DNA from: Liolophura sinensis | Lineage: Eukaryota > Mollusca > Polyplacophora > Chitonida > Chitonidae | Assembly: GCF_032854445.1 (NCBI RefSeq) | Contig: NC_088301.1 | Location: 57,734,512 to 57,798,511 of the forward strand | Length of the DNA: 64,000 bases | Direction: 5' to 3' | Shown here: positions 801 through 64,000 of the stretch, piece by piece | Layout of the letters: the number at the start of each line of letters is the position of its first letter | Numbering within the stretch: the first letter of the stretch is position 1 | Made by a program: the position numbers and the translations under genes | The notes under the pieces: model-generated | Database searches by the model: none | What the model saw: only the letters and a program-made list of their open reading frames with translations | What the model was told of the DNA's origin: nothing

Positions 801-13861
<13,061 letters not shown>

Positions 13862-13905
13862 ATGGTAAGTGGCTGTAATTTATTCTTCCGCGCATCCTAT
13901 ACAAG

Positions 13906-13917
13906 ATGGCGGCATAG
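13906..13917 (+). promoter_or_regulatory. Short upstream ORF (Met-Ala-Ala-stop) before RBM15 start
   Basis: The sequence caagATGGCGGCATAG has a purine at -3 and G at +4, a strong initiation context, and ends 59 nt before the RBM15 ATG at 13977. If transcribed it would be a three-codon uORF that could lower translation of the main frame. Whether the mRNA includes it depends on the unknown transcription start. Confidence 0.4.
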
Positions 13918-13976
13918 AAGGCGTGTTGTGTGGAAGCAATCTTTGTTATTTGTATCAGTATTCAGATTCATTTCCA

Positions 13977-41036: not shown

Positions 41037-44000
41037 ATGACGCACTTTACGCCTTTACTGACACTGTGGTGTGTATTTGTACTGATGGTTGGAACAGGTA
41101 AGCCCTTAATATCGTGCCACACATTACTTTTTCGTGACATGCGGTGAATGTTGTACACTATATAAATGTTGTAGGTATAATGAACATCATGCAATTTTTC
41201 ATGACAACAACCACGTTTAGTGGACGTCCTGCTAAGTAAGTATGCTCCGGAATCATTTTCTTCATTCTTTCAGTTCTGTCGAATCCTGAGACCAAGTTGG
41301 TACAAGTTTATCGGAATAAAATTGTTTATTGTAAATTGACAAGCATACATTTATATATAGGTGCACACTTTTCAGGACTTTTAGGGTTCCCGTTTTCCTC
41401 ACAAGCCGTTGACCTTCCCCTTCCGTTAAGTGATATTTTTCTGTTTATGGATGTTACTGTTGCCAGGTTGAATAAAACAGCTGAATGTGCACAAACCATA
41501 CAGCGTATGCACCGTTGCATTAACTCTTCCTTTAGGTTACCGGAGCACACCATGACATACCACCAACAGTAGCCTGCACGTTTATCTGCAATATATCAAG
41601 AAATCACCCTCGCAGTGTTATAGATTTTCCCCACCATGGTAACCTCCAGTGGAACAGACAAAATTCTGATGCATTTAATTAAGTGTAATATAATATCGTA
41701 CATGCAAAAAAAAGTATATTATCAACCTATAATGTCTGTGTGGCAGTATTTTCCAATCAGTGTTTCAAAACTCTTTTAAGTCGTAGGCAAATCTTGGAGT
41801 ATGTATTACCTTTACATCACTGTCACCACTATACAACTTTCACCATTCAACAGCTTAGATATATGTGGCTTGTAATTTAGGCTAAAATAGCTTAGCCACT
41901 AATGTCCTCGTGCGGACATTGTCATTCAAAATGCCTTAGATGTCCGTTTGAATATTGTGATAATTGCATAGCTATAAAAGAGAACACATATGCTGACCTT
42001 TCAAGTATTAGAAATATAAACTGAGTGCGTTCCTATTGCAGGCGTTTGGGCCAGAGATGTCCTTGGTGGAATTGGTCTGAAGATGGACTGTGTTAGTTCG
42101 AATACCTCTGCCTCTGTTGAATGGTGTAAGAAGGAACAATGTGGTGATGACGACCCCGCAATTGAATGCTGGGAACAGAACACCCTGCAAATCGAAAATG
42201 TGTCGTATCACAAAGATAAAGGCTGTTACCTGTGCATGGACCAAGACACTAACGAAACACTACACAACGAATCCTTCAATATATACGGTGAGTCCAGTTT
42301 CTAATTACAGGTTTTCTGTATAGGATATTAATGCACAACCAGTTTGAGAAAAATCGAGACGCTGTTTTACAGTACTTCATTAAACCACAACAGCCCAGTC
42401 TTACATTGTTAATAAACAAGACGACAAAAGTTTTACTGAAATCTGTTTTTTATTAAAGCTATAGACCGGAAGAATCGGGTGATGTCGGCGCGGTGACCTT
42501 CCTTACTTTCCTCCCTTCTCGTTATTTTCATGTAAATGATTCCTAGTCTGTATACTATATGCATACATATGACGCATGTCACGTACATACAGCCAAGTCA
42601 TGATTCATATCGCTGTACCTGCTCCTCCCGTTATTTCTTTGCTTGAAAATGGAAGTTATATGGCTTTCTGCGTATTTGCGCCATTTTTTCCTTTAAGGTG
42701 TATACTAATATGATTTTCATTTATGCTAGTCTGTATCTATCTCATACAAATGTACAGGATTAAAATAATTTTAATAACATCACTGAATAAGTTCAATAAT
42801 TGATTGAACCGAAAAACATTAATACAGTTTCTGTATGTATCTTAAGCTATCAACAAAATGGGGGCAACCATCAGTGTGAATAAACTACTGTTTTTGTATT
42901 GAAGAAACTCCTAAGAGAGTATGGCTGACAGATAAAACCGGTGTACCCCTAGTCTCCGTGGCTGGCAGGTTAGGCGACGTTGTAAGCTTGGCCTGTAATG
43001 TTCCATGCTCTAACCCGGAACCTCGTGTCCTGTGGGAAGACAGTAATGGCATATCAATAGGCAACGGAAGTCTCATGCCAGAGGGCGAGTGCAACTACAC
43101 TAGTGCCATCGATGTCAAACTGACTCCCGGCTTGGCGGGAAATACCATAAAGTGTTTAGCTCAGAATATTGAAATGTGGCCGCCAGTTAGTGCAGCATCC
43201 GAGGTTATACTTACACCAAGTAAGTCAATTATACGGTCCATGTATATGGAGCCCTTTCAGATAAAAACAAAACCGTCGGTTATTCCTGTGCTCAGTCCAG
43301 CTGGTAACATTCTTTCTCATGTATTGGCTCCTGGCAAGAACATTTTTATTTGTTTATTTTTTTTGTGTGTGTTTTACGTCATTCTCAAGAATATTTTACT
43401 TGTACGACGGCGGCCAGCATGATGGTGAGGGAAACCCACGACCATTTGCAGATTGCGGGTAATTAACGTCATAGCTTTAGAGGTGAACCTAACTTCAAAT
43501 TTGGACCCTTCTTGTGTGTATATCAGATGGTAAAGATGATTTACTTTACAGGAAACGTTATTCGCCTGAATCTTTGGTCAGCTGTCTTATCTCTTTGATG
43601 GTTTGGGTTGAACGATATATTGGTAATTGGCCTTGCGATCATTGATCTGGAACGTCTATTAGAGCGACGGGTGGTACACAGATGTCTGTTTTAACTCCTA
43701 GATTCACACTTTTCCTGTAAGAAAACTGTCTTTTCCAAACGTCATGACCCACTTACACCCAGTTTGTATATGTGCTTCCTTTGTAGCTGATGTTACCCTC
43801 TACGCGTCACCTAGTCATCGTGGCGCGTCTGTCATTGACCTCTGCAGGGAAGAGGTTGCCAATGTGACGTGCGAAGCAAAGGACGTGTTTCCCCCTCCCA
43901 ACTTCCAGTGGAAACTGGGTGGGAAACCTGTGCAGTCCTATGCATCTGAGTCAAACAACAATACATCCTGCAACAACTACACCTGTTTCAACTATATCTC

Positions 44001-47000
44001 ACTCAAAATAACACTACACCACCATGGCGAACTCTTATCTTGCACAGCCTGGAATCACTTCGGAAACAAGGTGACAACAACATCCAAGATCAAAACGCGA
44101 GGTGAGTTATCTCATGGTAGTATCTGACGATGCAGGATTAACGCCTGATGTATATATGCATAATTTGGACTATTGACCTTTTCCCTGTTTTGTTGTCGAA
44201 TTAATCCACATTAATTTGTGATTTTTTGAAAACGTATATGTAATATTATGCATACTATATTGCATTTAAACAAAGTATGTAGTTCGCATTGTTAGTTAAA
44301 TGCATAGGCTTCTTTTATCGTGTAGCCCTACCAATTTATCTGAACTTGAAGGATCAAAGGAAACAGTAAGGCCAGGGCAAAGTTAAACTAAAACAGTTTA
44401 GACCATGTGCTAATTGGCATTTAACACATATACTTTAAGACGGGAAAATGGCTTCTGAAAACTTCTGCTCTACTGGTTATGCTAACCTGACACTGGAGTA
44501 GTGTATCTCCAGAAACGGAAAGACCAATTTTGACTTAGTATGCCAACATTTCGGTTCTCCTGATGGTGACATAATTATGCACTAAAATATGGCGTCAAAA
44601 TAAGTCTTTCCGTTTCCTAGTTACACTGCATATGTATAACTGTTTACAAAATTCATTTATTTAGGTCCCCCAATATTTGAGAAGAAACACCACATTGTAG
44701 AAGCAAAGCAACATCACAGAATAAAAATGGCTGTCTTTTTCTTCACCTACCCATTGTTCACAACGGTTAAATGGGAACGACTCGCTGATCACCAGTGGAC
44801 ACCGATTTCCAGGAAACTCCACAGTGAGGATAAAGCGGTCGTCCGATTCAGGTCAGAGGGGAAGGATGGCAGTTTTTGTGGGAATTTTACTACATTGGTA
44901 ATACCGGATGTGCGAGAAGAAGACGCTGGTCTCTTCAAGGTGACAGTTGTGAACGATGAGGGGGAGAAATCTGTAAACATTACTGTCAGTAAGTAGAAAG
45001 AGAATATTATTAGTTTGTATATTTACATTCAACTCTCTCTACCTGTAACCCTTCTCTCATCCCTCGTCGACCGCTCATTTTTACAAAGGGTTCATAGAGA
45101 GAGCTTCATCCAAGTAGATGGTATTACAAAGTCATGGTTCAAAAGTTAACAACAGTATGAAAAACATCAATCTAACCATGAGACCCCGAGGCATTAGTGC
45201 GGCCTTCAAAGTGATGACAAAGCCATTTCGCTTGGTGATGCCTTAGCATTTTATGACAAGAAGACACCGTGTTATTATGGCGAGAAACCTTATCCTTAAG
45301 ACATGAAATCTTGTCCTTAAGACTCGAAACCATGTAATTATGGCGAAAACCGTGTTATCATGGCTAAAAACCTTGTCCTTGGTAGCTGAGACCTTGTTAT
45401 TATGGCGAGAAACTTATCCTTAAGACACGAAAGCTTGTTATTATGACGAGAAACAGTGTTATTAAGACATAAACAATTTCATCAAGGCATTGAGACATGG
45501 AACTTTGTCAGTAAGATATAAATCCTGGTCACAGAGTCATGGAAATCTTGTTCTTAAGGAATGAAACCTTGTCACTGGGACTTGAAACATTGATATTATG
45601 ACAAGAATTATTGACATTTAACACTGCCGTTAATACATGAAACGTTGCCACTGAGACATGAAACGTTGCCATTGAGACCCTACAATTTGACACTGAAGCA
45701 TTAAACATTAAATTTGGGCATAGTGGCATGAAACCTTGTCATTAATAGAGAAATCGTGTCGTTGTGACACAAAATATTTTCACTAAAACATGAAACCTCT
45801 TTAAGACAAGAATCCTGGGCATAGATACATAAACCCTTTTCATTATAATGTGCAACATTGCCACTGACAAAAGAAATCTTTTCATCAAAGCATGACGCCT
45901 TGAATAAAGACATGAATCGTTAATTGTCATTAAGACACGAAATATCATTGAAACATTGCCACTTACAGATGAAATCTGGCAATTATGACATCTTTATCCT
46001 TGTCATTAGGACAGAAACCTCGTCATTGGAAGATACTGTAAAACCCTTCCCACAAACAGGAACAATACAGGTGTACGTGTAGTTAGGTCTCATGATGACG
46101 GAAAAATAAACTACTAATATATCGTGTTAAAAAGAGCCATTCGTTTTTTGGAGAACTTTACATTACACTTATATTACGTTAAACTAATCAGTGGAACACA
46201 AGGTACAAGTCGAACTCAATTTGCATATCCTTTGACTTCAGAGATGAAGACTGCAGTTAGCTCCGATGAATTCCCTCTGTTTTGGCTAGTAGTGGTTGCA
46301 GTGGTAATACTTGTTGGTATTGGTAGCATCTGGATAGCTATCTTGTACATAAAACTCAGACGTAAAAATGGTAAGTCGGATGTATATTCTCATCACGCTG
46401 TAAAAATATCCAAGACTAGAGCTGGTGCCTCATTAATTTTATACGGATTTTAGGTTGACACAGGTAAAAAATTGGTATTACTAACATAAAGATAAATATT
46501 TATACGATGCCTAACATGTGAATTATTTTATAAAACAGAATATGTCTCGATGAGCACTTTTTCATGCAAGGGCGTTTCTCCTTAGGTATACGTGAGAAAA
46601 TGTTGTAATTTTTAGTAGTAATCTCTGTAGGACTACAAGAATGATAGTTTTGTTTCAGATCGTAAGCAGGCTGTATCGGAGATGGTGAACTTGCAATCGA
46701 CGTCTGCTTCGTCAACTCAGTCCAGACCACGGCTTAGCACTCCTAGAGGTAAGTAACAACGTCCCCGAGAATTGGGTACTTTACTTATCTTTCAAAAGTG
46801 TTGTCGCTGAATCTTGGGTTTTGTCTGATTTAATCATCCTTTGTACAAGTAAAAATCGTAGTAGTTGGTTCTCCAGATAGGTCTAGTATCCACATTTTCA
46901 CCCCTAAAACTGTTCGTTGTTGTGAATGACCACTCAACCGAATAGAAATCTCTTTTATCGATATATGAAGTACACACACTTTGTTGACATAATGCTTTTC

Positions 47001-49230
47001 GTTGTTTTCACATGCTCTCTGGCATGATGCAGGAACCCCTATAAAATCCATCCACATCGATTACAAAAAGGTTATTATTTTCCACAGCCTCTGTAGCTGG
47101 GACATATGCCGATATTGATGAATTATTTGCCAGTACTATGGCCATGTTCCCGATGGAGCCATTTAGAGGTTCGTATGAAATGTTTCTCGTAGCGCCATAT
47201 ATGACAGTTTACAAGCATAATTTTATGGGCTTGTGGCGATTTTCTCCCCCCCAAAATCATGGTGTAAATATTAAATATATAAACATCTTTTAAACAGGGT
47301 AATATATATTACCTTTGACCTTGACTCTGTAGTCTGGTTAGTTATTCTACATACATCTACATACATATCTGGTGAAAACCCATTTGAAGGTGTACAATAC
47401 ATAAGTCATCTCAAGATTCAAACTGTAGACTACATTTGAAGGTATACACTTCACAACGAATCTCAGGCTTCAAACTGTAGGACGCATTTGAAGGTATACA
47501 CTACACTACGCATATCAGAGTTTACACTGTGGGATGCACTTTAAGATACACTATACACACACGCATATCAGGGTGCAAACTGTAGGATGCATGTACAGGT
47601 GCACACTGCTCAACGCATTTCAGGGTTTGAACTGTATGATGCATTTTAAGGTACACTATGCACAACGCATCTCAAGGTTTAAACTGTACTGTTTAAGGAC
47701 GTCTACATTTATAGAACGCATTCACAGGTACTCACTACACAACTACTCTCAGACACATTATATCTGAAGTCTCACAAGACACTACATACTAATATCACAC
47801 AAGACTTGGCTTACATGACACAAGACTTGGCTTACATGACACAAGACTTGGCTTACATAACACAAGACTTGGCTTACATGACACAAGACTTGGCTTACAT
47901 GACACAAGACTTGGCTTACATGACACAAGACTTGTCTTACACCACATAAGACTTGGCTTACATTACACAAGACTTGGCTTACATGACACAAGACTTGGCT
48001 TACACCACACAAGACTTGGCTTATATCACACAAGACTTGGCTTACATCACAAAACACTTGGCTTAAATCACACAAGACTTAGCTTACATCAAACCAAACT
48101 TGTCCTACATCACACAAGACTTGGTTTACATCAGACATCACTTGGCTTACATCACACAAGACTTGGTTTACATCAGACATCACTTGGCTTACATCACACA
48201 AGACTTGGCTTACATCACAAAAGACTTGGCTTACATCAGACAAGACTTGTCTTACATCAGACAAGACTTGGCCTACATTACACAACACTTTGCTGATATT
48301 GCACAACATTTGGTTTACATTACACAAGACTTGGCTTACATCACACAGCACTTGGCTTATATCATACCAACCTTGTCCTACAACAGACAACACTTGTCTT
48401 ACATCACAAAGGAATTAGCTGACATTACACAACACTTGGCTTACATCACAAAAGAATTGGCTTACATTACAGAAGACTTGGCTTACATCACACAAGACTT
48501 GCCTTACATCACACAAGACTTGGCTTACTTCACACAACACTTGGCTTACATCACACAACACTTGGCTTACATCACAAAGGAATTAGCTGACATTACACAA
48601 CACTTGGCTTACATCACAAAGGAATTGGCTTACATTACACAAGACTTGGCTTACATCACACAGCACTTGGCTTATATCATACCAAACTTGTCCTACAACA
48701 GACAACACTTGGCTTACATCACAAAGGAATTAGCTGACATTACACAACACTTGGCTTACATCACAAAGGAATTGGCTTACATTACACAACACTTGGCTTA
48801 CATCACAAAACAGTTGGTTTACTTCACTCAACACTGGGCTTACATTGCACAACACTTAATTGGCTTACTTTGAACTACCTATGATATAACAGAATGCTTA
48901 CGGTACTTTCTCTTAGAAAGTCTAGATATCGACAGCGTATTTTTACATTTTCACAACTTTTTGTAACGTTTCAAAATGAAAAATCATTTAAACACAGTTT
49001 CCCTATTTTAGAGCGTAAACATACATAAAGATTCACACTAGATCACAACTCTATATTAATCACTGTTAAGATGTAGCTGTTTTTTTTTTTCATTTCCAGA
49101 AGCGGCCATCGACGTTGAGGGCTACGAGGTACCTGTGATTCGCAATCCCACAGGCAGAAAGCCAATGTCGGACACTCCTGACTACGTTAACACCTGTGAT
49201 CGGGATCCTCTAACAACAGCTTCAGTGTAA
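41037..49230 (+). CDS. Ig-domain transmembrane receptor with tyrosine-motif tail (gene A)
   Basis: Nine coding exons join without a frame break: 41037-41097, 42042-42287, 42905-43219, 43787-44101, 44665-44988, 46203-46370, 46659-46748, 47088-47168 and 49100-49230 (TAA). Every junction is phase 1, the classic pattern of extracellular modular proteins, and the sum is 577 codons including the stop. Residues 1-20 form a signal peptide (MTHFTPLLTLWCVFVLMVGT). Four Ig-like domains occupy about 21-102, 103-207, 208-312 and 313-420, one per exon. Domains 1-3 show the B- and F-strand Cys and the C-strand Trp, and there are many N-glycosylation sequons. Domain 4 keeps the Trp and a DAGLF motif but lacks the Cys pair. 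The TM helix is at about 446-470, followed by KLRRKN. The cytoplasmic tail has Y513 (TYADI), Y542 (GYEVPV, pYxxP, Crk-type SH2 ligand) and Y561 (PDYVNT, pYxN, Grb2-type SH2 ligand). An adhesion or immune-type signalling receptor is inferred; no ortholog is named. The 46203 acceptor was chosen because only it preserves the frame. Confidence 0.85.
43340..43465 (+). repeat. SINE fragment in intron of gene A
   Basis: Contains 'tttatttgtttatt', 'ttctcaagaatattttacttg', 'acgacggcggccagcatgatgg' and 'aaacccacgaccatttgcag'. It is in sense orientation, just after the exon for Ig domain 2. Confidence 0.85.
45225..46040. repeat. Degenerate tandem repeat in intron of gene A
   Basis: A loosely periodic array built on 'aagacatgaaaccttgtcatt' variants (roughly 18-22 bp units), between the exon for Ig domain 4 and the TM exon. 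It is heavily diverged. Confidence 0.7.
47389..47760. repeat. Tandem repeat, about 52-bp unit, in intron of gene A
   Basis: About seven diverged units of the form 'aaggtatacactacacaacg' then 'catctcaggcttcaaactgt' and 'aggatgcattt'. It sits immediately upstream of the 21-bp array in the last intron. Confidence 0.75.
47794..48872. repeat. 21-bp minisatellite in last intron of gene A
   Basis: About 51 head-to-tail copies of 'acaagacttggcttacatcac'. Because 21 is a multiple of three, long frames stay open on both strands. The plus-strand frame reads as a heptad, YITQDLA, from 48100 to 48873. The left third uses 'catgac' and the right part 'catcac' with 'cacttgg' variants, so subfamilies are arranged in blocks. 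I interpret it as an intronic minisatellite, not a gene. Confidence 0.92.
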
Positions 49231-51050
49231 AGAATCTAGACGTATCTGATATTAAATTTCAAAACAGTGCGGAAAGCATTGAATGTTTACTGTGGAGTAT
49301 TTTGTATATCGTTGATTTGAACAGTTGTGGCGGGGAAGTTGGGGCACAGCATATGCTGGCCCTCCAATGCCAGGAGCTATTTCGCTGTAGTTGCTATTGC
49401 TTTTTATATAGCCTTACTTATATAAAAGTTTTTGACCACCAAAGCTATGAAAGTAAGACCGTGTATCCATTACTACTGAAGATATATATTTAATCAATCT
49501 GCTGCTCCCTAACATCAAAGAGGACTATAAGCTGACCCCTAGCAGCTATGAAGCTCGTCAATCCGTCACGAATCTGTGTTCCATACGTTTACAGAGCGGT
49601 TCATTGTAATGAATTGAAACATATTTTTTTCCTGAAGAGTATTGGTTTTCACAATTTACAAAGCGAGTGTTATAGATCGCTTCTAAAACTTGCACATCTA
49701 CATAAAATTTTAATCTGAGGGAAATCTGAGGGTTTTATGTTCCGGCTTTTAAAATATATTATGTTTTTCAAATTCATTTATATAATTGTAACAGAAGTTT
49801 GAATTTACCGAACTTACTGCGTGTCATTACCTCATATCTCAAATATCGCTGATTGTGAATATAGCAGATTGTATCTTGTAACGTTTATAACCGACCTGTG
49901 CATTTTTCACTCAAATTTATAATCCAGTTGTTTTTATTATGGATAAATTATTGTACATAATCATCAAATGCAAGGAAAATTGCGACATAGTTTTAATAAC
50001 CTCACGTGCCTATAATTTTGAACAAATTAACCAAAAATAATTGAGGAAGGTATTACTATGATTCTTTAATGTGTTATATGTGATGTATATTGGCGAATGC
50101 ATAACTGTCAGTCGTCTTGCATTGTAAGTATATCACATGTAAGCCTCCTATTCATAATACTATATGGAATTATCATGTTGGGTCAATTATTAGTGCATGC
50201 TTTCTTTGGAATGACTTCTTAGTGGAGATTTCCTTATCACAAGCGCATGATCTAATTTATTTTAATGTTCATAAACTAAGAAAGAAAGAAATGAAAATCT
50301 ACAAACTCATGTGAAGGTATTTTGTGAAGATATAGTAAGTAAACGATTAGCCTAGGGACTGGTACATTAATTTCTATTACGATGAAGACTTAGTTAGCAA
50401 TAGGCGAGGAAATGGTTGTGTATTTAGAGAAAAAATGTAAAAAGGAGGAATTTCCTTTCATTACGAAATCTGGAAATGAAATCATTTCTATGGTTTTGGC
50501 ACAAATAAGAACAAAAAAAGTTCTTACACTCTGTCCACTATTGTTTTGATTCCAGGTTCCATGGTTTATATTTTGTAAGAAATACAAATATAACAAAGCG
50601 GCAAAGGCACCGTTAGTAAGCATTTCCTTTAGGCCTGTGCATTATCCCCTAATCTCGAGCGACGTCGATTTTGGCGTACGTTGTAGTATGACCATCACGC
50701 AGTGCTGCACCAGTACTCCAGATGTGCAAGGTTCAAATCCATATGTAATTTCAAAAGATTTGGCTGTTTTGTTTTATTTTATTAATTTTGTAAGTCGACA
50801 TATTAAACACTAGAGGTTTAATTTCAGTTCTTTATAAGTTTAAAATGTATTGAATGACCATGTCTGCCAAAGAGAATTTGGTTCAGAAACGGCAGAAATA
50901 TGCAGTACTGTCAGAGAATAATAAAGCCATCATGAAAATCAGTATCTAGTCTTTATCCGTTTAATGCACATCTATTTTCTCCTAAATCCTTGATCATGGT
51001 TGGTGTAAGAGTGACACTAATTTAGAAGATGACTCCTACAGGAGCATGAT
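49231..51050 (+). other. Gene A 3' flank / intergenic, little recognisable
   Basis: Presumed 3'UTR of gene A followed by non-coding DNA. An AATAAA-like 'aataataaagcc' occurs near 50925, but no early canonical signal is clear. A tRNA-like 'caaggttcaaatcc' at about 50728 suggests another SINE head. I found no convincing first exon for gene B here. Confidence 0.4.
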
Positions 51051-51059
51051 AAAAATACC

Positions 51060-51355
51060 TTAATTGTGGCTCTATTTCACCGGTCAAACCTATTCCGAAC
51101 ATCGCTGATTCAAATTCTTAAATTGCCGGCTCGCTTTTTATTCACCGTTGAGGTCGCGCGATCGAACCTAGCTCTAACTGTTTTTTCTGCTTCTTTATGT
51201 CAAGGGGTTTGTCAGGTAATTGGCGAAGCCGAATGATTTACTTTTTCAGGTTCTCCGATCTCTCCACCCTTAGATAAACCTTACTGCCGTCATATATGTG
51301 AACGGTTAGTGATCACGGAATAAAAAAACATTCAAATAAACAAAATAAATGAATT
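51060..51355 (+). repeat. SINE copy, full-length but diverged
   Basis: Box-B-like 'gcgatcgaacctag', then 'gtttgtcaggtaattggcg', 'tttactttttcaggttctcc', 'ctccacccttagataaacc' and an AAACAAAATAAATGAA tail. It is colinear with the body of the element at 37352-37612. Confidence 0.7.
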
Positions 51356-51497
51356 AAAGAGAGACAGACGATTCCCTTTGCGTAAAATAGCTGACTATTC
51401 ACAGACTGTCATACAAAGAACCTTTTTTAGATATCACACCATAACGCTGGCTCGACGATTCGTTTTGGACCAGACCCTCGCCTTATTTCTTCCACAG

Positions 51498-54400
51498 TTT
51501 TAACGGCTCTCCGTTCATCATTGTGGTAGAACCCTGGACAGTATTCAGCACTGCAGGTAGTTCGAAGAAATCAAAGGTTAGTTTTTACTAAGCCATCCCA
51601 TGAAATTTCTCACCACAAATCTTTAGTCACTTGTTGTATTTACTGACATCCAAGTTGACTGATTGTGTGATTTCAATCAAGTCTGCGGTGCACACTTAAG
51701 AGGGATAACATGATTGCTCATAGTGGATCCTTTCTAGTACTTCATTGGTCGAAACGTACCACATGTATTTGAACTCAACTAGAATCAGGAACCAAAGATG
51801 CCATAGTCAGTCCTGAAGACACGAAGGCACTGCTCCTTTCTCAATTCTCAGCCTGTGTCACTTCTTAACCCAGGAGCTGTTTGCTTTTACTATCGCATGC
51901 TGCGCTCTATTGCATAAAAATAAATGGATAGGAATGAACGACCCTATTTTATGCATATCGTGGCGATATTTATATATGCCTTTATCTTTGTACAAAGATC
52001 TGACGTTAAACTTAATTATACGCTTATATCGATACAGATCCTAACATGGGTGCCAGGACTAGATCTTACATAAGGTCAAGCTGAATAATATTATCAGCAT
52101 TTTGTAAATATATGTATCCAACTGAAAACTATTTGAGAAAACCATGACGAGTGTGGATTTATATGTCTTAGATCAACACTCTTCACACAGTGTGCTTTGA
52201 TAAAGTTAATTATGATAACGGAGTCAAGATTGTTTTACATGCAACATGTATTGTTCGGTATTCAGTTGGTAGCGGTATGGGCAATGACTACAATGCGACA
52301 ACAGACTATTCGAATCTTAACAGTAAGATTTAACATTACTCCTATGTGGACAAATATGTCCGAAATGAAAAATTACTCAAGTTACTAATCATACCTACAA
52401 TACAAAGCTTAAAATCCCACGCCTTTGTTTCTTCTATGTCGAAAATTATTCAGATATAAATGTTTTATTTTTATCACGGGAATAATATAGTCACGGAAAT
52501 AGTATAACGAATGTATGAATGAACGAAATGTATTGCACCCTAGAGTTATTTAACAGGCTTGTGAAGAAATTCACATATTTAAATGTTTAAACTAATTGAA
52601 TTTCTCTTCGCCAGATACAAGCCATACTTCTGATGTAGGAAATCACATAAATAATGATGAAACCCCTGCTGTTACATGCGACACATATTGGGCGTTAATT
52701 GGTGCCCTCCTTATAGTCACATTGCTATGTCTGTTTTTGATGGTGTTTTGCCCAATGCTGCTAAGATGGAAGGGGAGTCTCGTAATATACAGTAAGTGAG
52801 CTGCATGTGCAAGAGGTACTTCTAACTGCCCAAACAACAACTAAGATATAGCCTGGTTAACACTGAGTGAGAAGCATTGAGAAGAATCAAGTTTAATCTA
52901 ACTAGTCAAACTAAAGTTTTGTTTCACGAATCTTTGCACACGTTGTGTAACTTTCTGTGCATGGATTGTGCTTGATCCTAACTGCACCTCACGGTTCATT
53001 TCCTCTTTTGAAAAGAACAGTTTTATGTATGACATAGACCTTCCAACTGGCTGGCGTTATCCCTTTTTGTAAGCAAAACTGGTCATATTGTGATCCGTTT
53101 ATTGAAGGTTTCCGACTGATTAATCGCTTAACTATTCAGTGAACTAACAGTTTAGTATCTTTTGAATCTTTAACAACTATCTCATTACACAAGCTAGTAT
53201 AATAATCTGTCACAAACTGTCTTCCACGAATCTAAAATTATCAAAAAAGAAGTTTTTCAGCATTTTCACAGGTATGATAAGTTACATTATATCGTTGAGT
53301 AATTAAGATGTGTTTTCACCTTTTGAAGTCTGTAGATTTCCACCAAATCTGTATAGGTAAGACATGTTTTGCATGTTGTCTCTTATAACTCTCTAGACAT
53401 TGTCAATGGACTCTCTCTACATGTCCGCTGTATTGTAACCTTGCAAATCATCGTACCATTGTTTCACCATGTTATCATCTGACCATGGTGCAAAGCGATG
53501 GGGGTATGGGACATGAGATGGCAAAAAGCTTCCATGCCTTCCATGCGCATACCGATCATAATGGACATGAGGAGACAACAATTAACGCGTAGTATTTTAG
53601 TTCAACGCTAACAGTGCATCATGACAACATTATGATAACATATCGCATTACCCTACCTAGGTAGGGTAATGTCCCTTATGATGTTGATGCAACGGTACGG
53701 TACTACTACCTGGGTTATGTCCCTTATGATGATGATGTAATGGTACGGTACGACTACCTGGGTTAGCTCTCTTATGATGCTGATGCAACGTTGCGGTACG
53801 ACTACCTGGGTTATGTCCCTTATGATGATGATGTAATGGTACGGTACGACTACCTGGGTTAGCTCTCTTATGATGCTGATGCAACGGTGAGGTACTACTA
53901 CCTGGGTTATGTCCCTTATGATGATGATGTAATGGTACGGTACGACTACCTGGGTTAGCTCTCTTATGATGCTGATGCAACGTTGAGGTACGACTACCTG
54001 GGTTATGCCCCTTATGATGATGATGTAATGGTACGGTACAACTACCTGGGTTAGCTCCCTTATGATGCTCATGCAACGGTGAGGTACGACTACCTGGGTT
54101 ATGTCCCTTATGATGCTGATGTAACGGTACGGTACGACTACCTGGGTTATTTCCCTTATGATGTTGATGTAATGGTACGGTACGACTAACTGGGTTATGT
54201 CCCTTATGATGCTGATGTAACGGTACGGTACGACTACCTGGGTTATTTCCCTTATGATGATGATGCAACGGTACGGAACGACCCAGCAAAAGTTTTAATT
54301 AAACTGGCGAACTTGGCGCTGCTTTTTCTTTTTAAACCTAGCTTTAGTTTTACAATTAAACATGTTCCACGAAAGTTTCTCATTTAATGTTAGACGGGAT

Positions 54401-56146
54401 CAACTCCAACAAAAACAAAATGCCTCAGGACACGGGTACCTTATATTTTGAAAAGAGGCAAAGCTATACAGCCCTGTTATGGATTATGAACTAGTCAGGC
54501 GGGAAATGGTTTCTCTAGTTAGTGAAAAAGTTACATGCAGACTGAAGTGAAGTTTATTTTTATTCTAATTCCACGGATTCTCACAGACGGATGAAATTGT
54601 TTAAAATTGTCGCTGTTTGTTGGAAATTGTGAAAAATAAAATGAAGGATATACATCTCCAGGTTACCAGCTTTTCACTCTACCCTGTTTGAGGAAAGATT
54701 ATTGATGTTAAATTCCTTTGAACTAATACGACTATATTCATAACTCGCCTCTTTATATACGAGTCCATTCCTATTATTGCAAACATTTGTGTAGAAAACG
54801 TCAGTTGGAATATAAAATATGTGGTTTACTTTCAGTCACTAGGTGTTTTATACGAGATATGGATGTCTTCATTTCTAATGCAGATACGATGACAATAACT
54901 TTTATACCAGCCCATGGAAGGCACCATCATTCACAGAGCGGAAATCCGATGCAACCCTAACGGATGATGTCTTCAAAGGCCTTGGTAAAAATCATACATT
55001 TCTTTGCGCATTTCCAGTCACGAGCGACTCTGGAAGCAATTCTGCCGTGTATTCCATGCAAATCATATATCTCTCAGTACGACTGAAGACATCCATATAT
55101 ACCTTCATACGACTGAAGCCTTTCAATTATTCCCCCATATGACTGAAGCCTTTCATGTATCCCTCCATATGACTGAAGCCTTTCATGTATCCCTCCATAT
55201 GACTGAGGCCATCCATGTATCCCTTCATATGACTGAATCCACCCATGTATTCTCCATATGACTGAGGCCATCCATATATCCCTCAATGTGACTGAAGTGA
55301 TTAATGTATCCTCTATATGACTGAAGCCATTCATGTATCCCTCCAAATGGGCGAAGCATCCATGTATTCTCCATATGACTGAAGCCTTTCACATATCCCT
55401 CCATATGACTGAAGTCATTCATGTATCCCTCCATATTACTGAAACTAGTCATGTATCCTTCCATACAACTGAAGTTATCCATGAATCCCTCCATGCCACT
55501 GAAGCCATCCATGTATCCCGCCATATGACTAAAACATTCATGTATCTCTCTATTTGAGAGGTCATCCATTTATCCCTCTGTTTGAAGGAAGCCGACCATG
55601 TATCCCTCCACTGAATAACGGTGTCGTAACAGATCGACCACGATAAATATATGTTCCATGTAAGCCCTTAAGGATTAGGAGTTACTGTTACATCTCCGCG
55701 TGTTCATTTCGGGCAATGGATGTTTGGGCAATGTGAGTGAGTACTTGGGGTTTTTAACATCATACTTGACAATTTTTCAGTCATATGACGACGAAGGAAT
55801 CCTTAGAGTGCACGTAATGTGCCTCCTCGTCACAGGACGGATTTCCACCAATCTTTATCTATTACTGCTTCACTGAGACGCCTTACCGAAGGCAAGTACA
55901 GTTTAGTGTATCTCAATTTCAGACTGCGATGTGGGTATTTCACAAGCCAAATCACAGAGAGCATCTGCTATGTCGTTCCTGTGGGATGAAAAGAGTCCTT
56001 GCGTTAAAAGAACCCCAACCCTTGCTCAGAGTGACATGCCGTCGGTTAGTATCGAAAAGATGGACTTGGACGATTTGATTGCATCGGGCGCTTTGCTGTT
56101 GGCGGATGAAGAAGGGAGTAGTCTTGACAATGAAATCTTTGTTTGA
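51498..56146 (+). CDS. Unrecognised single-pass membrane protein, 5' end not found (gene B)
   Basis: Six exons join in frame: 51498-51556 (phase 2 to 1), 52191-52322 (1 to 1), 52615-52791 (1 to 1), 53329-53356 (1 to 2), 54884-54984 (2 to 1) and 55923-56146 (stop TGA), giving 239 residues plus a missing N-terminus. The first two exons look extracellular (SPFIIVVEPWTVFSTA; CFDKVNYDNGVKIVLHATC), with two Cys and NxT/S sequons. The third carries a hydrophobic TM segment (ALIGALLIVTLLCLFLMVF) followed by RWK. The cytoplasmic tail includes FYTSPWKAPSFTER, SFLWDEKSPCV and an acidic end, IEKMDLDDLIASGALLLADEE. The 28-nt microexon is required to reconcile the phase 1 and phase 2 neighbours. No family is recognised. 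It lies between two other TM-protein genes and shares the phase-1 habit upstream of the TM exon. The first exon is the least certain. Confidence 0.6.
53646..53671. repeat. 26-bp perfect palindrome
   Basis: The segment reads the same on both strands with no spacer, centred on 'acctaggt'. It abuts the first unit of the 48-bp minisatellite. Confidence 0.9.
53668..54278. repeat. 48-bp minisatellite in intron of gene B
   Basis: About 12-13 units built on 'tacctgggttatgtccctta', then 'tgatgatgatgtaatggtac' and 'ggtacgac'. Units alternate between 'gatgatgatgtaatgg' and 'gatgctgatgcaacg' types, giving a higher-order pattern near 96 bp in the middle. Long minus-strand frames are a consequence of the 48-bp (16-codon) period. 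Confidence 0.92.
55070..55612. repeat. 30-bp minisatellite in last intron of gene B
   Basis: About 18 units of 'tccatatgactgaagccttt' plus 'catgtatccc', diverging toward the right end. The 30-bp period keeps frames open (plus-strand reading HMTEAFHVSL). Confidence 0.9.
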
Positions 56147-56735
56147 ATCCTCCACTTAAAATAGTCAGGTTACACAGATGAGACGCTCGTTGCATCAGCT
56201 CGTGGACAGTCATTTCAGTACAGACTCGGTGTTCATGTTAATGATATTTCCTCTGACATAAGAAATGGTTCGATTTGTACAACAGTTGATAACATATGTA
56301 AAGTAGCACGATGTATGGTTATCGGTGTATGACGTACGTATCATCATAGCAAACATGGGCATGAATATGCCTCTCAACTAATCAAAAATTATAATAATGC
56401 ATTAAGTTTGGTCACGACAGTTGCTTGTGTTACAGAAGTTTGTCTAATTTGTTAGTATATATCGTCTTTTTTCGCCACGCGCAACCAATCAGTCGACAGG
56501 ATTTCCCTACAATATCCATGGCCTATTAAAGTTCTTTTTTTCTGTGGTACAGCTTGTTCAGTGTTGAGTTCTTTGCCTCTTGAAAACTACGGTATGTGCT
56601 AAATACGTTAGCCCGTGATTGACTCCAACAACACAACATTTTATCTCGGCTTCGCCTGGAAGCGATGTTGTGTAGTCCTCGTCAATCGCGGTCTAACCAT
56701 ATATTTAGTAAAAAAACAGTGATGTATTTCAAAGT

Positions 56736-56752
56736 AATAAATATGGTTTATT
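56736..56752. terminator. Back-to-back polyadenylation signals for genes B (+) and C (-)
   Basis: AATAAA at 56736-56741 on the plus strand and TTTATT at 56747-56752 (AATAAA on the minus strand) lie 5 nt apart, between the stop of gene B (56146) and the stop of gene C (57701). An ATTAAA for the minus strand at 57526-57521 is an alternative for gene C. Confidence 0.4.
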
Positions 56753-57329
56753 AGACAAGGTATCTTTTGTACAACGTATAAATGTATACTGAAAGGAGAC
56801 GAGCCTTATTTCAACCGAGTTAAATATGAAAAAATATCAGACTGAATTTGCAAAGGCAGTATTTACAAGGTTACGAAGTTTGTACAGTATGATTGACCCT
56901 GTAATGTGTCATATTAGGATGTCCCTGCAGCTAAGCATCAGTAACTATATACAAATGAAGGCCATCACCATGCTGCACTGTTTGACTATCTTTTCCCCCA
57001 TATGTTCCATTCATGCTCTCAATATCTACAGTTCGATTAAGGTGCTCACGTAGTCAAGAACCTCTGTATGCACACTTTTTATGTACAGAATTAATCGATG
57101 GTGAAACAAAATACCTATAGGCGAGCATATTTTGTCTTTTGTGAAAAGCTGCTACCAAACAAATCCTGTTTGGTCATTCACAACTACATGAACCAGTACT
57201 ATATATAGGAATAATAATAGCACTCCACTTAGATCTGATATATGTTGATATATAAGCGCACTTATAGCAAATATCGGTCTCAGGAAACCATGGACCATCT
57301 GGTAGTTAAAGGCATATAAGATTAGGATA

Positions 57330-57366
57330 TATCATACACACACGCACGCACACGCACGCACAACTA
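57330..57366. repeat. CA/CG-rich simple repeat
   Basis: 'cacacacacgcacgcacacgcacgcacaac' is a short mixed CA/CG microsatellite in the presumed 3'UTR or flank of gene C. Confidence 0.85.
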
Positions 57367-57700
57367 CATATGTATACATAACGCCGAAACTGGCGTGAAG
57401 GTAATAGGCGTACAAAATGGGCCATTAAAGAATGATATTTGACGGTAAAAGAAAGTAAAGCTACATCCAAAGGCTATCGACAAGATTGTCAGCATACAAT
57501 CTGTCTTCTCCACAGGCTGTTTTAATGGTAGGCATCTACAAAAAATTAGGCGACTTTCAGGTCAAACTCTAATTCAGTCTTATTTGTATGAGTGCACAAC
57601 AGTTACAAAAGTTCGCTTCAGTGTCATTATGTACAACACATTTAAAGGTTATCCGGCCACAAGAATGTAATTGGTCGTGAAAGACCTCAAACGCCACTGA

Positions 57701-60700
57701 TCACAAGTGAATATCCGAAGGCAGGCAGTTGCTCTGCCAGCCTCCATCGCCTCTCTCTAGGTCAAGGTACTCGTGTCCTACTTCCGCGTAAGAGTTTTCC
57801 GACTCTGGCGAGTAGGTCAGACTCTGGCGTCGACTTCCAGGACCGTAGTCTCCGTTGGAGATTGTCGGAACGGGAGAGAGCTCGTCTTGGCGCTCTAATA
57901 CGAAATAGTCGGGCTGTGGTATCTGGATAGAGCCTCTGGGAGAGGATCTGTCATTTCCCATCGCGACGGACTGGCCACTTCCCTGGCTGAACAGGGTCCC
58001 CACGTCATATGCTGAGGTAGAATGAGGATAGTTTAGCATTCCTAACATAGCCAAATTTGCGCCATTGCCAGGTGTAATCGGTACTTCATATCCATGAGGG
58101 GTTTCCACAGAGCTCAAAGGCTCGTAAGCTTCCCGAGGGCTTGCCTCTAGGGTCCTAGGCAGAGAATCTGTTGGTCTGGCCGGTAATGGTCTCATGGAGT
58201 TTCTCATAGAATTTACTGATTTCAGGTTGCCCGCACTTGAATTTCGTTTAACAACGGGGGGCATACGTTGGCGGTTGACGTCATAGGGCGTTGGTACACT
58301 GCGCAATTTATGATGTTGGGTTTTAGACATGGAACTGACATTAGATGGGGTTCGAGAAGTTGGTTGCTTCTGACCCTCCACTAGCTCCTCATACGCTTCC
58401 CTGGCAGAGGGTTCCACATCACATGGTAATTCCTCATAGCCGTTCGACTCCAACTGCTCCTCCCCAAAACATATTCCTCCACCTCCAACAAAGTTGCTGT
58501 TGGTCGGTTCTCGGAAGCTGGGCGCATACGAAATCTGAGCAGCTGGCGGGCGATAGGGAACCGGTGGTGGACCGTTGACAGACTTTACACTCGACTTGTA
58601 CACAGGATCGTTCTAGCAAAAACCAAACCAACAAACATTTGCCATATTTCATTAAGGTACTGTAACCCGAAGGCTGCAAATTCTAAGTTTGATCAAATGA
58701 TGAAATTTGCAAAATGTCTTCTAAAACAGCAATTAAAAACATAGTGAAGTCTTTCCGCAGCAAATCGTACATGCTAGAAACCTCGGTTAATGAGATTTAT
58801 TTAATTGGCTTACATCATTGGTTGTACAAATTTGGGTGGAGGTGGAGGTCACTGACGTCGCGTCGGATTTGCATAAGACAAATTCAGAGTCCGATTATTA
58901 CCTGTGGCTGAGTCAGAAAGTTTGTCAGATATCTGGCAAAAGGTGGTGATAAATAAAAAAAACCAATAAATGTATATATGTCTTTTTAAATGCCGAAACT
59001 ATGTATAGGCTCTGTACATACCAACATGTCACTATCCAGAGGAAATCCACTGTACTGAAGATGTAGTCCACGGTGACTAGATGTAGTAGATGCCCCACTA
59101 CTGTTAAAATGAAATTGAGAGTCATGTCACTTAAAGATATAGCTTGGAACGCTGTTAAAATATGACCATAATTAGATAATTCTAAACGAAAATATATAGT
59201 GTGTACGTATAGTACCTTTTGCCGTCTTTTCGCCTCTTCACACAGCACACGGTCAGACAGACCATAAACAGAGCCAACAGCGCCCCGCCAACAATACCAC
59301 CGGCCAGAATCTTCTCGTCTAACTTCTCCCACTCGTTCGATGCGTTCCCAATAGGTCCGGCTTTCGTTGAGATTTCCGTTGCCCCTGTGAAATTGTTGTA
59401 GATAAACTTACAGAGGCTGGGAAAGGAGTGGTACATACCTCTAAAGGTATTCCAAACCCGACTTCATTCATCTTGAGTTTAGATATAACGTTTGAATGGT
59501 TGCCTTCAAGGTGAGACACTTTCTTTTCAATTTCATTCTATTTACCTCAGCTAAAAAAAGTGTCGGATCACGAAGCAGGAAGTCTTTGTCTTAGCCCAAT
59601 GTTTCGCATATTAACGTCTTTCAGGAAATGTGTATCGTTAATTCTTACAGGTGAAAATTTGTCGTACATCTAACAATAAATGTATATATTGAATGATGTC
59701 AAACATATATTGGGTTACGTGTAGTTTTGTGGTTCTAGTTGGGAGAGTAGATTACTTGATCTGTCAGGCAACAGACTCACCTGGTGCTCCAGAGACGTTT
59801 CCATTCCGATGGAGGGTAAAGAACGGCTCCTGACCCTGTACGAAGCCTCCCTGCGTGCCGGCCCCAAATTCACTTTGGGCTCTCGACGAATCTGGCTTTT
59901 GTGTAGCAGACCCATTTCTAGTGTTTGATGGTCGACGTGTGGACTTTTCTTGTGCAGAATTAGAATTCTTCCAGATGTTGAGGTTTGACAGGACGGCCTC
60001 CGTCGATGTGTATACATTTGCGGACGTAGCCTTTCCCGCCGTTTTAGGCAAATGCTGCTGAGATGGCTTGTGGAATCGAACACGGGGTTTATTTGGCACA
60101 TTTCTGTTTGACTGCCGATCACCAGATTGATTACCTTGCTGACTTTCGTTTGGTTCCTGTGGACCCTCTGACATGATTGGTGGGGAGTTTCCCGCGTTCC
60201 TCCCATGTTGGCCATTGAGATCAGTGTTGACTGGGATTCGGTTAAGTGTTCCGGAGTTTTGGTCATTCGGTTGGGAGCTAGGAAAACTGCTGGGCCTGCC
60301 TGAAGGTGGGTTGTTCTGCACGGGAAGGCGGTTTAACCGGACAGGAGTGATGTTTTCTGAAATAGGAGCTGAACCAATCCGTCTTAATGATGGTGGTGCT
60401 GCAGGAATATTCTCCGGAGATCCCTGTCCTACCGGAGCGTTACCTGGATACGCAGATCCTACCGGTAATATAGGCTGAACGAAAATGCCTGGGAGAGGTG
60501 CAACAGGAACCGGTGACAGAACTGGCGGAAAGACTGGTGAAGGTGGGCCTTCCGAAGGCGCAGGTAGGTTGTTTGGTGGCTTTTTCACCTGTGCGCTCTC
60601 AGCTGACTGGACGAGAGAAGCAGTCGTCACAGTTGGTGGTGTGTTCTGTGTGCTGGAATACCTCATCATAGGTGTCGTGGAAGCTGGAAACAGAACAAAA

Positions 60701-61219
60701 GAATTTCACAGTACATGCATTCCATGAACAGAAATATCCTGTAGTTGGGGTGCTCTTTTTATTCATCAATAGGTTATGGTTATGGTTATGGTTATGTAAA
60801 ATTAAGTTATGGTTATGTAAAAATTGTAAAATTAAGTAGATGAATTCTGCATTCTGTATGATATTCTCTAATAATATGCAAACTTGCACAATGCGAATTT
60901 TGTCAACTTTTGCACAATTTCAAAAATTTAGGCGTATGATCACTATCTGTTTATTACAATGTAAATAACAACTATTAATTGAATGTATACCTTCAATTTA
61001 ATGCATTAAGAGCAAAACCGGGCGGCAAGTGGTGATATGTTATATAAATCGGCTCTTACTTGTAGAAGAAGGACAGATGTGCGGAAGAATTTCTGGGTCG
61101 CAATGTGGCACAGCTGGGTCCTGCACCTGACAGAGAATTGTCTCGCACTGCGGAGAGAGTAGACACCGCCTGTGTTCTTCATGGTCTGGTAGGGGGTGGC
61201 CTAGAGGATGCCAGCTCAC
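57701..61219 (-). CDS. Transmembrane protein with Pro-rich stalk and multi-tyrosine tail, 5' end missing (gene C)
   Basis: Five exons join in frame: 61219-61060 (phase 0 to 1), 60683-59781 (1 to 1), 59384-59216 (1 to 2), 59100-59022 (2 to 0) and 58612-57701 (stop TGA), 740 residues in all. The first exon has five Cys in a short span (RRCLLSPQCETILCQ, HCDPEIL, HIC). The second is a roughly 300-residue Pro/Ser/Asn-rich stalk with sequons, like a mucin-type spacer. The third holds the TM helix (AGGIVGGALLALFMVCLTVCC) followed by VKRRKDGK. The tail of about 330 residues has many tyrosines: YEELP, YEELV, YDVN, YEPL, YEVPI, YDVG, YFVL, YAEV and YLDL among them. There is a YEEL-x11-YEEL pair resembling an ITAM, and class-I SH3 ligands (RPLPARP). 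A phosphotyrosine scaffold or receptor role is inferred. The signal-peptide exon was not found and probably lies beyond the LINE at 61751 or outside the window. Family not recognised. Confidence 0.75.
60771..60826. repeat. (GGTTAT)n simple repeat
   Basis: Several 'ggttat' hexamers interrupted by 'gtaaaattaagt', in the intron between the first two known exons of gene C. Confidence 0.85.
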
Positions 61220-61750: not shown

Positions 61751-64000
61751 AATTCCCATCGGAATAACTTGTGTTGTGGATGAATGTGGATTGTAACGAA
61801 AAACATAGTTTTTATTGCTGTCTGTTATCGCCCGCCCAATCAATCTGGTAATGAACGGGAGCTCTCTATTAGTAAGCTACATGATTCTATCACATCTGTT
61901 TTAACAGAAAATCCAGACGTATTTTGTAAATTTTGGGAGACTTCAATGACAAATGTATCAAATGGCACGACTTCCACGTCAAGAGTGAACTAAAACTAAG
62001 TTTGTATTACTTGATCACGGGAAACAACCTCTTTCAACTTATCGATGTATCGCTGGCTACACCGACGAAAGTGGTTATATATTAGACCTAATTATTACTG
62101 ACAGTATTGGATATATAGATGACTATGGTGTGGCGGCATCACTTGCCAATATTGACCACTGTACTATCTATTGTACATTACAAATCACCCGATATGAGGC
62201 CTAAGACTTGCAAAAGGCATGTTTGGGACTACAAATGTGCCGACTTTTACGCCATCTCCTATCTGTTACGCCATGGATGTAAATCTTTGCTGACATTAAT
62301 GACAAAGTCTTTTTGAAATACGGATCAAAAACAGATGCTTTAAAAAAATTTAAACGTACCAAAACAGAGGAAGACAAATTCCGTTCCTACATTTCTAGAC
62401 GTGAAGCCAATACTGCTAAACGTAATGCAATACTGCGTTTCTCGGCAAATTTAAAACTTAAATTATCTGACCCTTAACTATATACAAAAACGTATTGGTC
62501 AGTGATGAAATCTTTACTGGGCCCAAAAGCAAAGCCCCCAATTCCTGCTCTTAATCTTGATGGTAAAAACGTGTCGAACAACAACGACAAAGCCTACGAA
62601 TTCTGCAGTTTCTTTGCCTCCCATTCAATTCTACCGCAAACAGTACCAGATTTACACAACCCCCCCCCCCCCCCCCTTATATATCTTACCAACTCACGAC
62701 GTCTTTGCAAACAAACCTGTGAGAAGGAGGTTACTTGTTTACTTAGAAACCTAAGTACAAGAAAAGCCTCTGGTGGTGATGGTATAGATGGTTGTGATGA
62801 TGGTAAGTAACTTCATGCTCAAATATTGTGCTGAAAGTATTGCTCCATCTCTAACTAAACTATTTAATTTTTCTTTACAGTCTGGGGTATTCCCCACTTT
62901 ATGGAAACTCTCTCGTGTTAGTCCAGTGTTTAAGAAAGGGGATAGACATGACATTTCAAACTTGTATCTCTACAACCTCCGCTTTCTAAAGTACTGGAGA
63001 AAGTTGTATATAAACACCTGTATGAGTATTGTATCAGTAACGATCTTCTAATATCGAACAACTATGGATTCAAACAAGGAGACTCTATCATATATCTGTT
63101 ACTGAAGATAGTACATAACATATATCAAAACCTTGACAACGGAAATGACGTGTATGGTCTTTCTTGATGTGTGTAAAGCATTTGATAAAGTTTGACATAA
63201 AGGTCTTATGTTTAGGTTGGAGCAATTTGGTATTGGAGATACCAATTCTTGGCTGAATGACTTTCTGACTGATAGAAAAATCAAGGTCTGTATTAATGGT
63301 ACTGCACTAGATGCCAAACCTATTTCCTGTGGGCTTCCTCAGGGTTCTGTACAATGTCCATTACTTTACGTAATATTTGTATATAACATTATTACAAACA
63401 TTGAAAATAATATTAATATTTTTTCTGATGACACGTCACTATTGGAAGAGATCAATAACTAGAGTGACCCAGAGGCTAAACTAAATCGAGATCTTGACCA
63501 TTTGTCAAAATAGGCAAGTCAGTGGGTTGTTAACTTTAACGCTCTTAAAACTTTTTACTTGCTTATATCTTTAAAATGTCACCCTCGTCATCCTAATTTG
63601 TATTTAAACGGTGTTAATGTAAAGAGCGTTCGCTCCAACAAACACCTCGGCATCATTCTGCAATATAATGGTAAGTGGAACGAACACATTCGAGCTGTAG
63701 TAAAGAAATCTAACAGGACATTAAGTACTTTCTACAGAGCAAAGAAAACTCTCACTAGAAAATGTCTTGTCACTCTCTTCCAAAACCCAGTAAGATCGTC
63801 AATCGAATATGGCAATGTTCTGTACGACAACTGTAGCCTCAAACTGGTAAACTCTCTTGAAGCTATCCAAAGACGCCTAGCTATCCAAATTACTCTGTAC
63901 TAGAGGATTACGTCAGATGTCATACAATAGTTTATTAAATGAACTCAAATGTGAATCTTTACATAATCGATGTTGATGCCATAGAATTCTACTATTCCAT
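61751..64000 (+). mobile_element. Degenerate non-LTR retrotransposon (LINE), copy 2, cut by window edge
   Basis: Nearly identical to copy 1 from 'aattcccatcggaataac' onward and same strand. It keeps the RT block missing from copy 1 (CGLPQGSVQCPLLYVIF), but its catalytic box reads FSDD rather than FADD. Stop codons at 62475-62477, 63460-63462 and 63511-63513 coincide with those of copy 1, and it also has a C tract (62660-62677). The 5' truncation is at the same point as in copy 1. The element continues past 64000. It lies upstream of gene C in opposite orientation. Confidence 0.9.

Follow-up and report, generated by a model that had tools for sequence, protein, structure and literature searches.

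Two neighbouring genes for single-pass membrane proteins with tyrosine-bearing tails in Liolophura sinensis

The 64-kb stretch of Liolophura sinensis DNA analysed here (the window) holds two neighbouring genes, A (41037-49230, plus strand) and C (61219-57701, minus strand), which probably encode unrelated single-pass cell-surface receptors, proposed to signal through phosphotyrosine; between them lies a set of exons, B (52212-56146, plus strand), which would represent a separate small gene or else an alternative end for A. An earlier reading made from the letters alone (the sequence-only reading) had placed three genes for transmembrane (TM) proteins here, in the layout plus, plus, minus. The assembled exon coordinates bear out this layout, and both the TM segments and the tail motifs support its description of A and C as single-pass membrane proteins with signalling-type tails. 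Of the three genes, A is confirmed as complete and C as present though incomplete, but the status of B as a separate gene is not established. What was computed here is the anatomy of the sequence (exons, Ig matches, membrane helices and motif content), and from it we infer phosphorylation, adaptor binding and ligand binding by A and C, as well as every step beyond it. In general, the two membrane protein genes of the locus are well formed but fairly ordinary, and a structural question attaches only to the B exons.

Gene A was assembled as nine exons with AG/GT borders that encode 563 residues in a frame without internal stops. In order, they encode the signal peptide, four Ig-like domains with an exon for each, the TM segment and, in three exons, the tail; hydropathy gives one signal-peptide-like and one TM segment. 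The start codon and the signal peptide (hydropathy 1.93) lie in exon 1 (41037-41097), which ends in phase 1. It is followed by the exons for Ig1 (42042-42287), Ig2 (42905-43219), Ig3 (43787-44101) and Ig4 (44665-44988), the TM exon (46242-46370; hydropathy 2.97, also returned by the strict exon scan described below) and the tail exons at 46659-46748, at 47088-47168, with a non-consensus donor (GTTCGT), and at 49100-49230, where the stop codon is found. The joint chance of openness for the lengths of eight of these exons, taken from random stretches of 16.4-41 kb and with the freedom of search ignored, is ~5e-14. All eight introns are in phase 1, with the Ig and TM exons each running from phase 1 to phase 1, and any single one of the seven internal exons could be skipped without loss of the frame; skipping of the TM exon likewise keeps it. 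Reading through the exon 5 donor (44989-45000) leads to an early stop, so that intron retention at this point would yield a soluble four-Ig form. Inside the last intron lies a tandem array of 21 bp units (47794-48857), which is a source of long spurious ORFs.

Against Pfam, the whole A protein scored above the cut-off with Ig_3 (5.1e-12), I-set (1.2e-11), C2-set_2, C2-set_3 and Ig_2, which places it in the immunoglobulin superfamily, and at a lenient E of up to 10 Ig_3 and I-set matched four stretches each. When the exons were searched singly, Ig3 alone was above the cut-off (Ig_2 5.1e-8, C2-set_2 2e-6; five cysteines, four sequons). The matches of Ig1 (Ig_5 0.002, the weakest; six cysteines, four sequons), Ig2 (C2-set_3 1.1e-4; four cysteines) and Ig4 (I-set 5.1e-4) were weak and below it. 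Ig4 has one cysteine and would therefore be without the usual disulphide. The ectodomain carries 12 N-glycosylation sequons compared to a shuffle mean of 3.7, a count that was reached in 1 of 3000 shuffles. Single-sequence structure models were poor (pLDDT 47.7 for Ig1 and 46.6 for Ig3), and the Ig fold of A is thus taken from sequence matches alone. Among PDB sequences, which gave 31 matches at E up to 1, A was closest to SYG-2 (1.8e-7), with CD276 at 5.3e-5; over Ig1 the matches were to LRIG1 (3.7e-4) and LAR (0.0014), and over Ig4 to titin (8.4e-4). The top place of SYG-2, together with the I-set and C2-set profiles, could indicate a role for A in neuronal or muscle cell adhesion, as a receptor of the SYG-2/nephrin type and not an immune one. 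However, CD276, IgG constant regions, LRIG1 and titin come next, which looks like a generic Ig-tandem pattern, and we consider an identity of this type rather unlikely. A search of viral contigs with Ig2 of A and the tail of C returned no relatives, as expected for animal genes.

The A tail extends 106 residues past the membrane and has three tyrosines, none of them in exon 7, one in exon 8 (TYADID) and two in exon 9 (GYEVPV and PDYVNT). Two tyrosines are in acidic-plus-hydrophobic contexts like those of SH2 ligands, compared to a shuffle mean of 0.20 (p=0.013). This is a modest excess, and the earlier description of both tails as rich in SH2-ligand motifs was overstated for A. Neither a canonical ITIM ([SIVL]xYxx[ILV]) nor an ITAM (YxxL/I-x6-12-YxxL/I) occurs in this tail. 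YxN is a Grb2-ligand motif; the tail has one (PDYVNT), which is not beyond shuffles (p=0.11). We hypothesize that the ligand of A's four Ig-like domains is most likely either soluble or carried by another cell, that clustering would allow a Src-family kinase to phosphorylate the tail tyrosines, and that the phosphorylated PDYVNT site could then recruit a Grb2-type SH2 adaptor.

Gene C is represented by five exons, open throughout and encoding 740 residues on the minus strand. At the thresholds used, no signal-peptide exon was found in the part of the window upstream of these; the N-terminus is missing and the gene is incomplete. The first exon found (61060-61219, end phase 1) encodes the end of the ectodomain, a short Cys-containing piece, and the second (59781-60683, 301 codons, phase 1 at both ends) a Pro-rich stalk. 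The one TM segment (hydropathy 2.67) is in the third exon (59216-59384, end phase 2), and the tail of 337 residues has its juxtamembrane part in the fourth (59022-59100, end phase 0) and most of its tyrosine-rich part, with the stop, in the last (57701-58612). For the lengths of the stalk exon and the last exon (903 and 912 bases), none of 8000 random stretches proved open in either case. C had no Pfam family match above the cut-off, and its PDB search gave no chain with E below 0.9. Directly upstream of C, on the opposite strand, are non-LTR retroelement-like pieces in several frames (61784-63900, plus strand), an assignment based on RVT_1 in 2 of 109 scanned ORFs, with the placement made by eye.

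The claim of a tail rich in SH2-ligand motifs does hold for C. Six of its 16 tyrosines are in acidic/hydrophobic contexts that resemble SH2 ligands, compared to a shuffle mean of 0.94 (0 of 5000 shuffles), and six are followed by an acidic residue (Y[DE], p=0.006). Furthermore, there is one YEEL-x11-YEEL pair with the spacing of an extended ITAM (shuffle p=0.04). On the other side, the tail has no ITIM, YxN or YxxM, and its eight tyrosines that fit Y..[ILVMP] are at p=0.053. C is probably a membrane-anchored docking protein in which a long stalk bears a small Cys-containing head, and the acidic-flanked tyrosines of its tail, including the YEEL pair, would gather SH2 proteins of the Src or Syk type at multiple sites.

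The B exons were scored with a splice model for which only sites of A and C were used (12 donors and 13 acceptors), B being excluded. In this model the B TM exon (52615-52791, phase 1 at both ends, hydropathy 3.01), which ends with one tyrosine (VIY), has an acceptor of 11.6 (top 0.14% of 3562 plus-strand sites) and a donor of 8.4 (top 1.1% of 3927). The exons preceding the TM exon had been said to join it in phase 1 in all three genes; this is the case for A and C, whereas for B only the acceptor of the TM exon has been shown to be of this phase. A strict exon scan (length 100-360 bases, both splice sites at least 7) returned 12 plus-strand and 7 minus-strand exon/frame combinations, and those bearing a TM segment were the TM exons of A and B only. 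The scan recovered exons 2-6 of A and none of the exons of C, the sites or lengths of which are beyond its limits, so that it is not exhaustive and a miss is not proof of absence. The ORF of the B TM exon matched TB2_DP1_HVA22 in Pfam at 0.04, below the cut-off. A plausible last exon (55923-56146) follows an acceptor in the top 0.7%; it is free of tyrosine and closes with a stop after the C-terminus EIFV, a likely PDZ ligand; B would supply a membrane helix and a tail that ends in this way. An optional tail exon (54884-54984, phase 2 in and phase 1 out), which would add two tyrosines, is doubtful: its donor is weak, and there were 0 candidates at the thresholds used for an exon linking it to the TM exon. 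At the other end, a signal-peptide-like segment that ends in phase 1 (52212-52380) is a possible but weak first exon. Between A and B, first and internal exons were looked for with an earlier donor model (14 donors, two of them from B) and again with the model that excludes B, which gave weak candidates only and no convincing ectodomain exon. Two tandem arrays between the B exons, at 53664-54282 (48/96 bp units) and 55063-55610 (30 bp units), also contain spurious long ORFs.

We tentatively suggest that B might be a small independent gene, in which a signal peptide, a glycosylated ectodomain of ~57 residues, a TM segment and a PDZ-ligand tail make up a protein of ~190 residues. The exon at 52212-52380 is indeed in frame with the B TM and last exons, and the predicted ectodomain has four sequons; however, the donor of this exon is weak (3.3), the sequon count is within that of shuffles (4 vs 1.76, p=0.06), and there is no family match above the cut-off. 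The B TM and last exons could instead form an alternative 3' end of A, by which the same four-Ig ectodomain would be joined to either the tyrosine tail or the EIFV tail. Exon 5 of A, the B TM exon and the B last exon can be joined into a frame of 553 residues with no internal stop, and the frame of A tolerates the skipping of any one internal exon, but phase-1 joints fit by default and the in-frame joining is thus weak evidence. This reading would also account for an ectodomain of B's own being represented only by weak candidate exons and for there being no Ig match among the 109 scanned ORFs, which include the stretch between the A stop and the B TM exon. The alignment score of the A and B tails was reached by 0.25% of 2000 shuffles (p=0.0025), and the A-C (0.056) and B-C (0.58) scores were not beyond shuffles. 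Nevertheless, 1 of 235 control ORFs matched the B tail as well as the A tail did, and the A-B pair is one of three comparisons; we regard this similarity of sequence as suggestive only and do not claim kinship between the tails. Given also the weak first exon of B and possible polyadenylation signals between A and B, we find an alternative end of A doubtful. The fuller arrangement of a single Ig locus with alternative membrane-and-tail cassettes, one for phosphotyrosine (A) and one with a PDZ ligand (B), and with the neighbouring C possibly as its partner, strikes us as improbable; if it were true, splicing of one ectodomain would choose between signalling and junction anchoring. In Botryllus the opposite error is described, where one alternatively spliced gene was first assumed and there are in fact two adjacent genes (PMC3691228), a precedent by which the status of B is not decidable from sequence alone.

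Other parts of the window were surveyed with Pfam, for which 232 of the 322 ORFs of at least 55 residues were scanned in two sets, A1 (123 ORFs) and A2 (109 ORFs); the 90 ORFs left out lie, to judge from their coordinates, on or around A and C, the large ORF at 13.9-16.3 kb, or tandem and simple repeats. In addition to RVT_1, eight other families were matched in A2, and of these only TB2_DP1_HVA22 was placed, at the B TM ORF. A large uninterrupted ORF on the plus strand (13869-16319) has RRM and SPOC domains and RNA-binding protein 15 as its top PDB match (4.9e-45), and is an RBM15/Spenito-type gene in which the matched parts are without introns. Protein kinase pieces are present on the minus strand in separate ORFs at 2760-2969 and 3164-3340 (Pkinase 1.2e-8 and 9.7e-6); a third Pkinase ORF belongs to set A1. 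The letters of these two pieces and of 10270-10452 (minus strand), which has no Pfam match, we take to resemble MAPKAPK2/3. The RBM15-type ORF and the kinase fragments are housekeeping types. One A1 ORF, within 1-30765, matched the HRG haem transporter family (PF16954, 2e-4), and two rounds of ten ORFs did not place it more closely. An Rfam scan of 36000-64000 found nothing at the gathering score. A codon-usage measure of coding potential, trained on A, C and the RBM15-like ORF, was negative in five of the nine A exons and placed a wrong frame above the right one in four of the five C exons; it was dropped, and frame openness, splice scores and family matches were used instead.

The sequence-only reading had further taken A, B and C to be a lineage-specific receptor cluster, possibly immune or allorecognition-like, and had pointed to their phase-1 joints before the TM exon as a pattern that allows domain shuffling. 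Such symmetry does not mark out this locus: among extracellular proteins that metazoans made by exon shuffling, class 1-1 modules are described as generally the rule, with phase-1 introns in excess near signal-peptide cleavage sites (PMC8001218), and the shared phase of A, B and C is thus expected and uninformative on common origin or function. The cluster itself was not supported. When the three proteins were aligned all against all as a three-sequence database, no alignment had an E below 0.6, and tblastn against the 64 kb found no second copy of any of them (best non-self E=0.38). Kinship among them is absent or unproven. Neither A nor C has a canonical ITIM, and the other recognisable genes of the window (RBM15-type, kinase and HRG-like) are not of immune types. 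On the other side, an Ig receptor does adjoin a gene with a tyrosine-rich tail, Ig gene clusters with haplotype copy-number variation are described in pearl oyster (PMC9646362), and Ig receptors with ITIM or hemITAM motifs are described in Botryllus fuhc (PMC12065747). By analogy with pearl oyster a cluster is possible in principle, but it is without support here, and we consider it very improbable that the three genes form a haplotype-diversified cluster of immune or allorecognition receptors.

Comparison with described allorecognition systems gives a similar picture. A is, like Hydractinia Alr and Botryllus fester/FcoR, an invertebrate Ig membrane receptor, but the Alr genes are described as a family of 41 (PMC11999971) and the Botryllus fuhc receptors as clustered polymorphic haplotypes, with FcoRs that carry tail motifs (PMC12065747), whereas in these 64 kb one Ig gene was found and no array of related receptors. 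A, C and the B pieces had no match at E up to 10 in Pfam to a sushi domain, unlike fester/FcoR, or to a fibrinogen domain, by which a FREP would be recognised. As described, CgSiglec-1 is a molluscan protein with an immune role that shares I-set Ig domains with A and differs from it in having two of them (PMC5877582). The C-terminus of B resembles, over four residues only, that of an Echinoid-type adhesion protein (EIFV vs EIIV; PMC3899232); B differs from it in that our scans gave B no Ig ectodomain to itself.

The nearest described invertebrate case that we found for A is CgIgIT2 of the Pacific oyster, which is described as having five Ig domains, a TM segment and a classic ITAM, and which is termed inhibitory in the title of a paper cited there (PMC11999971). 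By this description both are invertebrate tandem-Ig membrane proteins with a tyrosine-bearing tail, and A differs in the number of its Ig-like exons, which is four, and in lacking both an ITAM and a canonical ITIM. More generally, the mode proposed here for A and C would follow, by analogy, the logic of the non-catalytic tyrosine-phosphorylated receptors (PMC11399299). Like these receptors as described, A and C have no kinase domain match and have tail tyrosines suited to SH2 domains; unlike them, they have no canonical ITIM, and an extended ITAM-like pair is present in C only (PMC11399299). Should A and C be expressed in immune cells, they would add to the invertebrate receptors in which SH2-ligand tyrosines are used in the absence of a canonical ITIM or ITAM, and such receptors would help to date the origin of this style of signalling.
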